Below are positions 1 through 5,177 of a stretch of DNA of 64,000 nucleotides, piece by piece (positions within the stretch are counted from its first letter, which is position 1; the number at the start of each line of letters is the position of its first letter). The notes beneath the pieces were generated by a model, which ran no database searches, had not been told where the DNA came from, and saw nothing but the letters and a program-made list of their open reading frames with translations. The translations under genes were made by a program, and so were the position numbers. The stretch comes from Planctomycetaceae bacterium (GTDB lineage: Bacteria; Planctomycetota; Planctomycetia; Planctomycetales; Planctomycetaceae), in assembly GCA_002724315.1 (NCBI GenBank), contig PBOJ01000134.1, forward strand, positions 1 through 64,000. The letters run 5' to 3'.

Positions 1-186
1 CAAGACAGACATCGCCGGTTTCTTCTCAGAATCGTCCGACTCCTTGCCATCTCCACCCTCAGCGCGGCCCGCCTGCTGGGCACGAGCCTGTTCCAGGACA
101 GAGGCTCCCTTCGTGGATGGAGTTTTTTTTCTGGCCGGCTTGCCTGCACCGCCGGAACCCTGTTTTCGGGCTTGCTCAAGAACCGA
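1..186 (-). repeat. repeated SVLEQAR motif in protein tail
   Basis: Within the partial membrane-protein gene the heptapeptide SVLEQAR is encoded at 166..186 and again at 82..102. A third copy begins at 1..9 (SVL) and is cut by the window edge. The spacing is 28 and then 31 codons, with a Lys/Gly/Ala-rich linker between copies. The codons differ between copies, so conservation seems to act at the protein level and not through recent DNA duplication. Confidence 0.75.
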
Positions 187-891
187 AGAGGGCTTGGCAG
201 CCGGTTTGTCTTGAGTTCTGGATGCTGTGGCAGGTGCGGGCTTGTCCGCAGTGTCGGCGTCGGGTGCCATTTGAGGTGGATTCTCATAAATGGACCCGAC
301 GATCTTCTCCAGATCGCCGTCCCGCTTCAGCCACTTTCTTTGCCTGGCCACATCCTCAGCCACGTTGATGGCCGCGTTGGCGCTGGTGTCGATCTTGCCC
401 GAGACCTCCGATATCGACTTGTCAGCCAGGAACTGCATCGAAGCACACTGGTAGGGCACCTGGTCGATGAATGTCTCGTTGGGCACTCGCGTGGTCAACA
501 ATCTCGGCAACACCTGCTGAAACGCCAACCCGACAACACCACTGAGGATGATCACCGCAGTGGTCAACCAAAGACCAATCTCGACCGGACCTCCCCAACG
601 AAACCCAGCGTGGAACAGGATGAAGGCAACACTGAGCAACCCAAGCCAGATGTGTCCCTTGAGCCAGAACTGGGCGCTGCCGATCCGCCAGGTCGGCACT
701 TGTCGACGCGCCGAGAGCAGGCCGGCAAAGATCATCATTGCCGTCCCGACCAGCCCAAACACGAGGCCGGGAAGGCTCCCTCCGGACACTCCGGAGGCGT
801 CGGCGGCGTAAGACACATACGCAACGGATCCGAACCCGAGGACAACCAGCGTGAGCAAAAGCCACTGCCTGTGTGAGCGATCGAGGATCAA
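1..891 (-). CDS. membrane protein with HX13H helix and repeat-bearing tail (partial)
   Basis: The gene runs off the left edge, so only its first 297 codons are visible. The start is a TTG at 889..891 interlocked with the TGA stop of the preceding gene, which points to translational coupling. Four hydrophobic segments are visible at about residues 10-29, 40-60, 79-97 and 104-124. The third carries His80 and His94, an HX13H spacing typical of b-type heme ligands in cytochrome-b-like helices. After about residue 130 the chain becomes soluble, then rich in Lys, Ala and Pro, and repeats the motif SVLEQAR. Seen: the helices, the histidine pair, the repeats. Inferred: a membrane electron-transfer partner of the four-cluster ferredoxin encoded just upstream. 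The heme assignment is not proven, because the other visible helices have no histidine. Confidence 0.8.
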   Translation of the reverse strand, partial: MILDRSHRQWLLLTLVVLGFGSVAYVSYAADASGVSGGSLPGLVFGLVGTAMMIFAGLLSARRQVPTWRIGSAQFWLKGHIWLGLLSVAFILFHAGFRWGGPVEIGLWLTTAVIILSGVVGLAFQQVLPRLLTTRVPNETFIDQVPYQCASMQFLADKSISEVSGKIDTSANAAINVAEDVARQRKWLKRDGDLEKIVGSIYENPPQMAPDADTADKPAPATASRTQDKPAAKPSSVLEQARKQGSGGAGKPARKKTPSTKGASVLEQARAQQAGRAEGGDGKESDDSEKKPAMSVL

Positions 892-3188
892 GAAGCCACC
901 CCCCCGTTTCCGCTCACGCCGGAGATTTCCTCCGACTCGAAAAAGAACCCTCGGGCGTTAACTCGGATCGCTGCTTCGTGTGGACAGGAGTAAACACACG
1001 AGGGTTCCCCGCTCGACAGCGAACTGCACATGTCGCAGACAACCGCCCGATTGGTCACCTTCTTGACCTCGGCGTCCTCCCCCAGCAGGCTCAGTTGTTG
1101 CTCGTTGGGTTCGACCGGGACGGGCAGATGGTTCATCTGGATCGACCCGTACGGGCACTGATCGGCACACAGGCGACATCCGATACACCAGTTGCGAATC
1201 TGGATCTCACCACTGTCCCCCCGATTGATGGCCCCGACCGGACAGCCAATCATGCACACTGGGTCGAGGCATTTGCGACAGGTCAATGGGACCAGGAAAT
1301 TCTCGAATCGGGGGCCATCCAGATAGAGCCTCGTGTTGCCATCATCGTGAGCAGCAATACAGGCATCGACACACGACCCACAACGCGTACAGCGATCCAG
1401 GTCGATCAGCATCAACTGCTGTCCCTGGACGAGTCCGAGTTGTTCAAATCGGGGCGTCTGCTGTCGCAGCGATGCGGGATCGACGGCCATTCGGCTGGCC
1501 TGGTCCTGCCGGTCACGTTGGCGACGGCGAACGATGTCGTCGATCGAAGACTTCAGGGAATGCGATGACTGCATCATCTCGTGAAGAATGTCACGGGGAA
1601 TGCGGACCAACTCGACGCGCGATGGCACGGCCCCGGTACGCGAATCCGGAATCCGCTGATGGAAACCACTGTCCGGATGGTCGTAGGCCACGCACGTGGC
1701 GTTGCGGGGCTCATCGAGCACGACACCCATTTCGCCCAGCGAATCGCCGCGGCCCAGGTAGGCTAGCGTCCGCCTTGCCCCCACCGACTCGTCCCGCCTG
1801 GGGATCCCGGCGGGAAACGCCAGTTCGAGCAACCAGCGGCGACAGGTCCTCAGCTCAAGCTGTGACCAGTTCTGGCAATTGTCGGGGTAGTCTGCCAGCA
1901 AGTCGTCAAAGTCAGCGTCGCCGAACAACGCCGAGACATCTGCAGTCGTCTTCCCCAACTCCTTGGGAAAATTGTCGACGAGGATGAACGAATTGAGTGC
2001 ATCGAGAATCTGCTGGTTGATCACGTCCGAGACCTCGCCGGACTCGGCCCTCGCAACCAACTCATCTTGCAGCGAATCGTCGAAAACGGTGGCCACCATA
2101 CCGGCCACCAGTTCGGCATTCTCGCGACACGCTGACGCGAGATCGGCATAGATCACAGTCCAATCGCTCGCTTCAAACTCGGCCATTCGCAGGCTCGTCC
2201 ACGCGTTGGCGACCACCTTGACCACTCCACTGCGGATGACGTAGATGCAGTCCGACTCACCGAATTCCTCGCAGATCACACCACCGGATTCGAAGTCGAC
2301 CAGTTCGACATGTTCTCGCAGCTTCGAGAACTCCGCCTCATTGAGTTCATTGAAGAGCGAGAGCTGCCGGATGTGCCCCTCGAGCACCCGCTCCCGATAC
2401 ACCGCATCCATCCGCAGCTTGTACTTTGGGTCGTTGTGGAGAGTGTCGAGGACATTGCGAACCATCTCGAGCAAGTAACACTGCCCGGTGGCCACGACAG
2501 TTGCCGATCGGGGAGACCGGTTCATGCAGCTCATCTCTCCAAACAGCTCACCCTCGTACAACGGGGCCTGCCGGGTCTCGCTGTCGATGTCCGAGGGACC
2601 GTCGATGGGGATCAACCGAGACCCATCGGGTGCGGCAGCCTGCTGCCGGCGGACACCAAAGAGATTGTTGAGCCACCCCTTGAATCCCCTCGAGCGAAGC
2701 GTGGGCTCCAGGGACACAACCAACTGGGCCGCGGCGACCTGCTCGAGTTCCCTCCGGGCCGACGCGTCAGCGGATTCGAGTTGTTCGCAGCGATCTTCGT
2801 ACGCGGCAATCTCCTCCTCGTACTCGACGACCAACTCGGCCCGCTCCAGTGCGTCAAGCGGCTCGAACCCACGGTGATCGACGGTCTCGCCGTCGGCCAT
2901 CGACTGCAGAGTCTGGAGTTGCTGACGACGAATCGCGAGAACATCCTGGCTGGTCAGGATCGCGAAAGCCGTCGCTCCAGCATCGCCCTGCTCACAGATC
3001 ACTCGTCCCGGTTCACAACGTCTCAGGACAGTGAAACCCGGAAATCGGTCAAATGACGGAGTCTTCTTGAGTTCATCGAACAGAGAGATCTGCTGCAATT
3101 CAACGGCCGTCAGCACTTCGTCGGCCTCACCGAGCGACTCGGCAATCTCCGAGAGGTCCGGAGGCAACATTGCTGCAGACTTGGCCAT
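888..3188 (-). CDS. split cyclic-nucleotide-binding domains fused to a four-cluster 4Fe-4S ferredoxin
   Basis: This 766-residue protein has two parts. The C-terminal part (about 600-745) is a DmsB/NrfC/HybA-like ferredoxin with four cysteine sets: CTRCGSCVDAC, CRKCLDPVCMIGC, CIGCRLCADQC and CDMCSSLSSGEPSCVYSC. This predicts four [4Fe-4S] clusters. The N-terminal part has CRP/FNR-type signatures such as PGRVICEQGD near 60 and GELFGEMSCMNRSPRSATV near 220. A second pair is VICEEFGESDCIYVIRSG near 310 and GDSLGEMGVVLDEPRNATC near 500. Each putative cNMP domain is therefore interrupted by an insertion of 100 residues or more. No signal peptide is visible, so it is probably cytoplasmic. Its stop overlaps the start of the membrane-protein gene. 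Inferred role: a nucleotide-gated or redox-sensing electron carrier for that partner. Confidence 0.9.
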   Translation of the reverse strand: MAKSAAMLPPDLSEIAESLGEADEVLTAVELQQISLFDELKKTPSFDRFPGFTVLRRCEPGRVICEQGDAGATAFAILTSQDVLAIRRQQLQTLQSMADGETVDHRGFEPLDALERAELVVEYEEEIAAYEDRCEQLESADASARRELEQVAAAQLVVSLEPTLRSRGFKGWLNNLFGVRRQQAAAPDGSRLIPIDGPSDIDSETRQAPLYEGELFGEMSCMNRSPRSATVVATGQCYLLEMVRNVLDTLHNDPKYKLRMDAVYRERVLEGHIRQLSLFNELNEAEFSKLREHVELVDFESGGVICEEFGESDCIYVIRSGVVKVVANAWTSLRMAEFEASDWTVIYADLASACRENAELVAGMVATVFDDSLQDELVARAESGEVSDVINQQILDALNSFILVDNFPKELGKTTADVSALFGDADFDDLLADYPDNCQNWSQLELRTCRRWLLELAFPAGIPRRDESVGARRTLAYLGRGDSLGEMGVVLDEPRNATCVAYDHPDSGFHQRIPDSRTGAVPSRVELVRIPRDILHEMMQSSHSLKSSIDDIVRRRQRDRQDQASRMAVDPASLRQQTPRFEQLGLVQGQQLMLIDLDRCTRCGSCVDACIAAHDDGNTRLYLDGPRFENFLVPLTCRKCLDPVCMIGCPVGAINRGDSGEIQIRNWCIGCRLCADQCPYGSIQMNHLPVPVEPNEQQLSLLGEDAEVKKVTNRAVVCDMCSSLSSGEPSCVYSCPHEAAIRVNARGFFFESEEISGVSGNGGVAS

Positions 3189-3363
3189 TAGCTTTCTCTG
3201 ATGGGGAACTTCACGACGTTGGGACGAAATCGATTATGGTCTGCCCCACGCCCTACGGCAAACCGATCAGAATTCGAAATCGGCAACCGGTCTTGCGGAA
3301 AATCCACAGGGTAATCGACACTGAAAGGCGTACCACAGCAACCGGGCCCTGAGGCTGACGCCC

Positions 3364-3774
3364 GTGACCTTGCACGAACTGAAGTTCGTTCGACAGTACG
3401 AAGGAGAAATGCTGCGTCGTTGGTTCGACGACGACGAGGGCATCTTTGACTTAATCGCCTGGGTCGACGACAACGACGTCGTCTCCGGCTTCCAACTGGC
3501 ATACAACTTCAACGGCGAAGAACGGGCGATCACTTGGCTGGGAGATGCCTTCAGCCACCGCAACGTCGATCCGGGCGACGACTCACCGCTCTCCAACGAC
3601 AGCTCGGTACTGGGTGACACGACGAGCTACCCGTTAGTCGAGATCATCAGGCGATTCGACAAGAGCAGCCGGGACATCGCTCCGGACGTCCGCTCCGTGA
3701 TGCTCGAGAAACTCGAGCAATACGCTGAAACACTGCAGACGGCTCTACCCGACCAGTCTCCCACCAAGCCCTAG
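3364..3774 (+). CDS. hypothetical protein, 136 aa
   Basis: I do not recognise this family. The start is a GTG; the next internal Met (MLRRWFDDD) would remove about 16 residues. The protein is acidic and soluble with no signal peptide or membrane segment. Residues 20-60 contain many Asp/Glu and aromatic residues (RWFDDDEGIFDLIAWVDD), and the C-terminus looks helical. It is transcribed divergently from the ferredoxin gene across a 175-bp gap and converges on a DUF1501 gene. Its TAG stop interlocks with the TAG of that gene in the shared sequence CTAG at 3771..3774. Confidence 0.7.
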   Translation: MTLHELKFVRQYEGEMLRRWFDDDEGIFDLIAWVDDNDVVSGFQLAYNFNGEERAITWLGDAFSHRNVDPGDDSPLSNDSSVLGDTTSYPLVEIIRRFDKSSRDIAPDVRSVMLEKLEQYAETLQTALPDQSPTKP

Positions 3775-5177
3775 AGCAATTCCGGGACCGGGCGTCCACC
3801 CTCGGTGACGATCGGGATCGGTCGACCGCTGCGGTTGGTCCAGTGCGTGTCGAGCCCGATACCGAGGTGACGGTAGGTGGTCGCGGCGAGGTCCTGGGGA
3901 CGAACCACGCCGGATTTCACCGCCGACCCGTTGCGGTCGCTCTCTCCGATCACCTGCCCGGCCGGCATTCCGCCGCCCGCCACGACCATGGACATCACCT
4001 TCGCCCAGTGGTGACGCCCGGCCTTCTCGTTGATCTTCGGAGTGCGGCCGAATTCGCCCATCATCATCACGAAGGTGTCATCGAGCAGCCCGCGGGTATC
4101 GAGATCGGTCACCAGGGTGGCCATCGCGCGGTCGATCCGCGGGCAAAGCGGTGTCAGCCCCTTGCTGATCCCGCCCCAGCGAACATCGTCGCCGTGGTGG
4201 TCGAAGTAACCCCACGCGCCGCTGACCAACACGAATGTCACGCCGTGCTCGACCAGTCGCCTGGCCAGCAACGCCTTTTCACCTACGCTGCAACGCCCGT
4301 ACGCGTCACGGGTTGTCGCGGCCTCCTGCGACATGTCGAAAGCCTTCTGGACCTTGCCCGAGACGACCATCTGGTAGGCCCGCCTCTGGTTCTGGTCGAG
4401 ACGATCCAGGGTGTTGCGTTGATCAAGATCACGACGAAAACGATCGAACTCCTGACGCAAACCAGCCCGATCGGCCAATCGGGATGCCGCGATGCCCTTG
4501 GGCAACGCGAATTTTCCGGTCAACTCAAGCCCCTTGACCGGTTCGTGCGTGGGCCCCATTTCGCCGGCACCGTAGACATCGCTGGTCCAACTCTTGGCCA
4601 GTCCCACGAACCCGGGCATGTCGACGTCGTTGCCACCACGGAACTTCGAGACCACCGATCCCATCGAGGGGTAACCACCACCGTCCTTGCCATCGTTGGT
4701 TCGACGCGCCAGCGGGTTGCCCGCTTGCATCGTGATCGGTGTGTGGTTGCTGGCACTGCAGTCGACCGCCCGCAGGATCGACAGCTTGCCAGCCATCGCC
4801 GCCTGCATCGGCAGGTGTTCACCAAAACGGACGCCGGGAATCGCCGTCGGAATCGTCCCGTAGGGACCCCGAACCTCACGCGGCGCATTGGGCTTGGGAT
4901 CCCACAGGTCCAGTTGGCTGGGACCCCCGGAGAGCCAGAACAGGATCACAGCCTTGCGTTTGTTTGAACCGGACGCCCCCCCGGCAGCCGAGGCCTCGCG
5001 AGCCGCCAGCAACTCGGGCAACGTCAGCCCGCCCACGCCCGCGGCTCCCGTCTGGAGAAACCAACGCCTGGAACCGACACGGATCGTATCTTCAGCAGCC
5101 GGACGAAATGGCGAAGCGAGCGTCTGATCGGCGTGGTGAGCGTCGTGCTCGTACCCGTGGCTGGCTGAACTCGTCAT
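3771..5177 (-). CDS. DUF1501 family Tat-exported protein
   Basis: DUF1501 proteins (alkaline-phosphatase/sulfatase-like fold) are abundant in planctomycetes and usually exported by Tat; their substrates are largely unknown. The 468-residue product has SRRWFLQ at 36-42 followed by a hydrophobic stretch, as in a Tat signal. Family landmarks are ILFWLSGGPSQLDLWDPKP near the start of the mature protein and MMGEFGRTPKINE towards the C-terminus, then GRHHW. I chose the ATG at 5177 because a longer in-frame extension would bury the Tat signal behind about 130 atypical residues. It stands alone without a PSCyt1 partner, unlike the DUF1501 at 31609. Substrate unknown. Confidence 0.93.
   Translation of the reverse strand: MTSSASHGYEHDAHHADQTLASPFRPAAEDTIRVGSRRWFLQTGAAGVGGLTLPELLAAREASAAGGASGSNKRKAVILFWLSGGPSQLDLWDPKPNAPREVRGPYGTIPTAIPGVRFGEHLPMQAAMAGKLSILRAVDCSASNHTPITMQAGNPLARRTNDGKDGGGYPSMGSVVSKFRGGNDVDMPGFVGLAKSWTSDVYGAGEMGPTHEPVKGLELTGKFALPKGIAASRLADRAGLRQEFDRFRRDLDQRNTLDRLDQNQRRAYQMVVSGKVQKAFDMSQEAATTRDAYGRCSVGEKALLARRLVEHGVTFVLVSGAWGYFDHHGDDVRWGGISKGLTPLCPRIDRAMATLVTDLDTRGLLDDTFVMMMGEFGRTPKINEKAGRHHWAKVMSMVVAGGGMPAGQVIGESDRNGSAVKSGVVRPQDLAATTYRHLGIGLDTHWTNRSGRPIPIVTEGGRPVPELL

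Follow-up and report, generated by a model that had tools for sequence, protein, structure and literature searches.

How would a ferredoxin that carries cyclic-nucleotide-binding domains pass its electrons on, and to what? Two overlapping genes at the start of a planctomycete contig, P1 and P2, raise the question; an earlier note had suggested that the pair could carry electrons into or out of the membrane in response to a nucleotide, marking that function as inference. We favour, with a probability of roughly 0.6 and without any bench test, a reading in which they form a conduit, gated by a cyclic nucleotide and independent of quinone, that carries electrons from a cytosolic donor to multiheme cytochromes in the periplasm or outside the cell. 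The window is the whole 64,000-nucleotide stretch analysed and starts at the first base of contig C112 of this genome (G000). Its features are:

888–3188, minus strand: P1, 766 aa; two cyclic-nucleotide-binding domains (CNBD1 and CNBD2) and a four-[4Fe-4S] ferredoxin
2895–3032, minus strand: N-terminal half of P1 CNBD1 (residues 53–98), from strands in the AF2 model
2481–2564, minus strand: phosphate-binding cassette of P1 CNBD1, GEMSCMNRSPRSAT; Gly, Glu and Arg in 40/40 aligned sequences
2199–2375, minus strand: N-terminal half of P1 CNBD2 (residues 272–330), from the AF2 model
1677–1772, minus strand: phosphate-binding cassette of P1 CNBD2, GEMGVVLDEPRNAT; Glu in 39/40 and Arg in 39/40 aligned sequences
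963–1415, minus strand: P1 ferredoxin domain with four [4Fe-4S] Cys sets (residues 592–742), from PDB matches and conserved Cys
1–891, minus strand: N-terminal part of P2 (TM1–TM4 and the start of the cytosolic loop), from comparison of ORF, contig and relatives
610–654, minus strand: P2 TM3 with HX13H (residues 80–94), putative heme b ligands; the two His are each in 32/33 aligned sequences
1–186, minus strand: start of the SVLEQAR motif array and of a 31-aa (93-bp) tandem repeat in the P2 loop, at the contig break

The P1 ferredoxin and its nucleotide-binding domains

P1 matches Pfam cNMP_binding over three stretches (E = 1e-21) and several Fer4 families, and its score of 77.1 bits against PF00027 is above the gathering score of 27.5. 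The cysteine sets fall at residues 600–610, 637–649, 668–678 and 718–735, and all 16 cysteines are invariant in 40 aligned sequences. The last 150 residues match PDB entries 7qv7_A (E = 1.2e-13) and 7z0s_B (5.3e-11), which are HycB3 of HDCR and formate hydrogenlyase subunit 2. On the strength of the 16 cysteines and these matches to solved members, the C-terminal domain is a HycB/DmsB-type four-cluster ferredoxin. In the AF2 model of P1 (pLDDT 81.8), Foldseek places PKA regulatory subunits at the top (2.4e-9) and also finds hydrogenlyase-type ferredoxins. The four 4Fe-4S cysteine sets and CRP-type motifs that had been noticed in the first product thus held, in both Pfam and the alignment.

Like PKA regulatory subunits and CRP, P1 has tandem domains with GE..R(S/N)AT cassettes, and the Gly, Glu and Arg of both cassettes are kept in 39 or 40 of the 40 sequences. 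It differs from them in that its output is a ferredoxin rather than a kinase or a DNA-binding domain, and in the long inserts inside both nucleotide-binding domains, one of which parts the N-terminal half of CNBD1 from its own cassette. That P1 senses a cAMP- or cGMP-type nucleotide is an inference, as there are no nucleotide-binding data. CISM beta/gamma modules and the HycB/HydN/DmsB ferredoxins share with P1 the four [4Fe-4S] cysteine sets and a cytochrome-b-like membrane partner. In contrast to these, no molybdenum or tungsten catalytic subunit was seen beside P1, P1 is fused to two nucleotide-binding domains, and P2 scores above the cut-off for no known gamma-subunit family.

A possible source of the putative signal lies nearby in a number of genomes. 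In 10 of 27 genomes P1 has a class III cyclase gene no more than 20 kb away, against 0.49 expected; these loci had been fetched before cyclases were examined, and the count is not corrected for shared ancestry. In this genome the cyclase is at C170:18901–19998, and its Lys and Asp, read by eye, fit an adenylyl cyclase. By the same kind of reading, the linked cyclases of relatives are without the usual Lys/Asp substrate pair, so the identity of the messenger is not fixed. Adjoining the cyclase of this genome is a gene for a protein kinase (L036:17544–18869) with an N-terminal nucleotide-binding domain, as read from sequence.

P2, a putative diheme b membrane protein

The TTG start of P2 (window 891–889) overlaps the TGA stop of P1 (890–888), as had been noted. 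The P2 frame leaves C112 inside the 93-bp tandem repeat, so the window holds only about half of the gene; the only reason P2 stops at position 1 is that the contig breaks at that repeat. Contig C170 of the same genome opens with the same repeat at 95–98% identity, and the P2 frame resumes there at G000:C170:3–713, with a second HX13H helix. In relatives, both HX13H helices are within single ORFs. Given the shared repeat and these single ORFs, C112 and C170 most likely join within P2, which we consider likely to be one gene, although the junction is inferred from repeat and relatives and has not been read through. The part of the gene beyond position 1 is thus most probably on C170, together with the remainder of the operon. 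The repeat that breaks the assembly occupies window 1–186 and L036:1–258. Tandem Repeats Finder detected no tandem repeat in window 1–4000 because only about one unit is present there; it was C170 that revealed the repeat.

In an alignment of 33 P2 sequences only four histidines are conserved in at least 32 rows: H81 and H95 (32/33) and H326 and H340 (33/33), in Pan216 numbering. They form two HX13H helices, of which the first is the one the earlier note had seen. The loop before TM3 (TM2–TM3) is strongly positive, with a mean of +4.2, which places the long loop of P2 in the cytosol and implies that both TM3 and TM5 should enter the membrane at the cytosolic face and leave it at the periplasmic one. 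With the two helices in the same orientation, the histidine pairs would lie at equal depth and could hold two stacked hemes, a geometry inferred from topology. P2 thus resembles a five-TM diheme b protein of no known family; heme binding is inferred, not shown.

Searches for a known relative gave little. The AF2 model of P2 (pLDDT 84.5) has no PDB match by Foldseek at E ≤ 0.001, and a profile search against PDB sequences returned chance matches only. Ferric_reduct (PF01794) stays below its curated cut-off of 28 bits, at 19.6 bits for the P2 of the window and 24.8 bits for that of Pan216; among P2 members its weak matches reach E = 2.5e-5 at best, and 11 of 33 have E ≤ 0.1. Profile searches also matched no transporter family and no known gamma-subunit family above cut-off, which leaves a non-heme transporter identity without support, and CXXCH is absent from the P2 ORFs examined. 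Diheme b proteins of the ferric reductase/NOX type are like P2 in having two helices with heme-type histidine pairs at HX13H spacing, and they probably share with it the task of moving electrons from NAD(P)H to an outside acceptor. Unlike them, P2 has no FAD/NAD domain and no PDB fold match, and its donor would be an Fe-S protein and its acceptor a multiheme one.

Between TM4 and TM5, the relatives of the window's P2 carry a cytosolic loop of low complexity that can reach about 700 residues and is studded with up to 13 copies of the motif S[PV]L(E/D)x(A/M)(R/K), for example SPLEMAR, SPLELMR and SVLEQAR. The P2 of the cultured strain Pan216, at 347 aa, does without such a long insert. It should be borne in mind, before the comparison with shuffling is read, that this motif was defined after inspection: 29 P2 loops hold 141 copies, where shuffling gives 0.1. 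When all ORFs of the fetched loci are compared, those with at least two copies are 32 P2 ORFs, P1 of a Schlesneria-like clade and one unannotated 220-aa ORF in L061 that overlaps P2. The P2 of the Schlesneria-like clade has no loop, and its P1 has the array instead:

L129:9929–13393: P1 carrying a SPLExMR-type array
L137:9836–13567: P1 carrying a SPLExMR-type array

That the array moves between P1 and P2 suggests the docking of a partner shared by both, which is again an inference. In the P2 of one close relative (L061:2930–4063) the copies cannot be counted, the stored record reading N (X) over the loop.

Gene order, cytochromes and electron donors

Beyond P2, contig C170 holds:

C170:763–2274: decaheme protein (ten CXXCH)
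C170:2339–3805: C554-like protein with four CXXCH and one CX4CH
C170:3806–5476: C554-like protein with five CXXCH
C170:5483–9757, convergent to the cytochrome genes: 1424-aa protein with nine CXXCH and LVIVD repeats
C170:9763–11652, convergent to the cytochrome genes: 629-aa porin-like protein

Many genomes of the class share the order P1–P2–decaheme–C554–C554 (tetraheme, pentaheme). Named genomes were scanned, and the best 80 of 487 matches gave 79 loci; ten contigs were too short to judge, which left 69 testable. In 60 of these, P2 lies no more than 3 kb from P1, with the decaheme gene in 52, and the pair is therefore conserved far beyond this strain. The nine other P1 loci had room on both sides but no P2 at such a distance. 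Most loci have C554-like proteins in the operon, and the porin-like protein, the nine-heme protein or both are found in 15 of the 79. The porin-like protein has no Pfam match, and its hydrophobic N-terminus and aromatic C-terminal residue are kept in relatives.

P1-like proteins occur in 78 of 156 sampled genera of the class (E ≤ 1e-20, all P1-like matches counted). The genome searches covered Planctomycetota only. In the P1 tree, rows of Planctomycetaceae or Phycisphaerales surround some records titled Kuenenia and Vicinamibacteraceae; as these titles are probably binning labels, we make no claim that P1 occurs in another phylum. Several Phycisphaerae and Singulisphaera sp. GP187 have the decaheme gene divided between a four-heme and a six-heme ORF (L113:12509–14127, L135:8405–9879). 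The nine-heme LVIVD protein (L036:5483–9757) has a partial match, far below the curated cut-off, to ExtM, a cytochrome of selenite/tellurite reduction (E = 1.2e-16).

The genes beside P1 in relatives indicate that the donor there is most likely NADH. A fused NuoE–NuoF gene adjoins P1 in eight fetched relatives, in seven of which a HoxU/NuoG module is fused to P1 itself; in the eighth, L143, the module is on a neighbouring ORF. In other relatives a gene near P1 encodes an NDH-2 (type II NADH dehydrogenase) that is fused with a nucleotide-binding domain; in Pan216 this gene is divergent from P1 and about 6 bp away. L142, L144 and L150 have an FNR/NqrF-like reductase near P1. These three designs are largely in different parts of the P1 tree (a quick tree with midpoint root). 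The NuoEFG/HoxEFU diaphorase offers the nearest comparison for the first design, except that here the electrons seem to reach a cytochrome b and multiheme c cytochromes rather than quinone or a hydrogenase.

In this genome none of NuoEF, the NDH-2 fusion or an NqrF-like reductase adjoins P1, and P1 has no HoxU/NuoG module. With no known donor gene beside P1, the donor in this genome is not identified. The only NuoF homologue is on contig C39, beside a 950-aa protein with a HoxU-like start; we rejected it as a dedicated P1 partner in view of its separate locus and of that 950-aa partner. One NDH-2–nucleotide-domain query matched nucleotide domains only.

A proposed gated conduit and its rivals

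Domains, conserved ligands, gene order, neighbours and neighbour statistics are shown by the sequence comparisons above; the mechanism that we build on them is not. In the proposed conduit, P1 would act as a cytosolic four-cluster ferredoxin reduced by a cytosolic reductant, in relatives most likely by NADH electrons that arrive through NuoEF and the HoxU/NuoG module, the NDH-2 fusion or the NqrF-like reductase. P1 would pass electrons to P2, a five-TM cytochrome with two hemes b stacked across the membrane between TM3 and TM5, and from P2 the electrons would reach the decaheme c and the C554-like cytochromes, and perhaps also the porin/nine-heme pair at the outer membrane. The two nucleotide-binding domains of P1 are predicted to gate this flow on cAMP, cGMP or a related messenger, and the multivalent array in the cytosolic loop of P2 may dock a partner protein. 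Electrons exported from NADH would run downhill without any of the energy being conserved, and that would be a reason for gating. What remains inferred is that heme and nucleotide are bound, that the flow is gated, that a partner docks and that electrons move outward, the last on the basis of the NADH-oxidising neighbours and of energetics. The nucleotide-responsive route first put forward as inference is thus supported by the second histidine pair, the multiheme cytochromes, the NADH-oxidising partners of relatives and the linked cyclases.

A bolder form of this reading, to which we give rather less than even odds, holds that the product of the class III cyclase directly switches a route that bypasses quinone and crosses the inner membrane, starting at NADH (or ferredoxin) and ending at multiheme cytochromes; an unclassified five-TM protein with two hemes b would be part of it, and a multivalent array would dock and so recruit the cytosolic enzyme.

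Three alternatives deserve mention, all of them unlikely. The same conduit may run inward, from periplasmic or extracellular donors such as Fe(II) or reduced multiheme cytochromes, through c cytochromes and P2, to cytosolic ferredoxin or NAD+. The anatomy does not fix the direction, related inner-membrane proteins have been proposed to be bidirectional in other bacteria (PMC6295460), and a porin-like and multiheme pair is nearby. However, relatives have flavoprotein partners of kinds that normally oxidise NADH. By established bioenergetics, an inward flow at about -300 mV, from the positive side of the membrane to the negative one, also needs a driving force, which we have not computed. Alternatively, the system may be a local supply of periplasmic reductant, in which the tetraheme and pentaheme C554-like proteins are terminal reductases (of nitrogen oxide, peroxide or similar) fed by P1, P2 and the decaheme protein. 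In favour of this are the presence of C554-like proteins in the operon of most loci, their weak matches to NrfH and UshA-like cytochromes, and the restriction of the porin-like/nine-heme pair to only some loci, but the C554-like proteins match no curated enzyme family above cut-off. Finally, the nucleotide-binding domains could be structural or bind another ligand, with P1 a constitutive ferredoxin and the cyclase linkage mere shared regulation, as the long inserts and the atypical substrate residues of linked cyclases might suggest, but the near-invariance of cassette Glu and Arg, the linkage itself and the nucleotide-binding domain on an unrelated NADH dehydrogenase beside P1 all speak against it.

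The proposed gated conduit would stand apart from the well-known inner-membrane entries to multiheme conduits, the EET quinol oxidases CbcL/MtrH/MtoC, ImcH and CymA, which are linked to the quinone pool (PMC6295460). P2 would share with them its position at the entry to multiheme c cytochromes, and CbcL also joins a diheme b to a multiheme c. The EET enzymes, however, draw on quinone and carry c hemes on the membrane polypeptide, whereas the P2 ORFs examined are devoid of CXXCH and the b hemes of P2 would be fed by a cytosolic ferredoxin with nucleotide-binding domains. To our knowledge, no inner-membrane entry to a multiheme conduit is switched directly by a cyclic nucleotide. We found no paper describing the P1–P2 pair in the open literature searched, which omits most subscription papers; as far as that literature goes, the parts are familiar, and their combination, and P2, have not been described before. 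This class of planctomycetes is mostly regarded as one of aerobic heterotrophs. If the reading is correct, planctomycetes would gain a switchable electron outlet, their many multiheme cytochromes would gain a testable role, and P2 would represent a new family of diheme b proteins.
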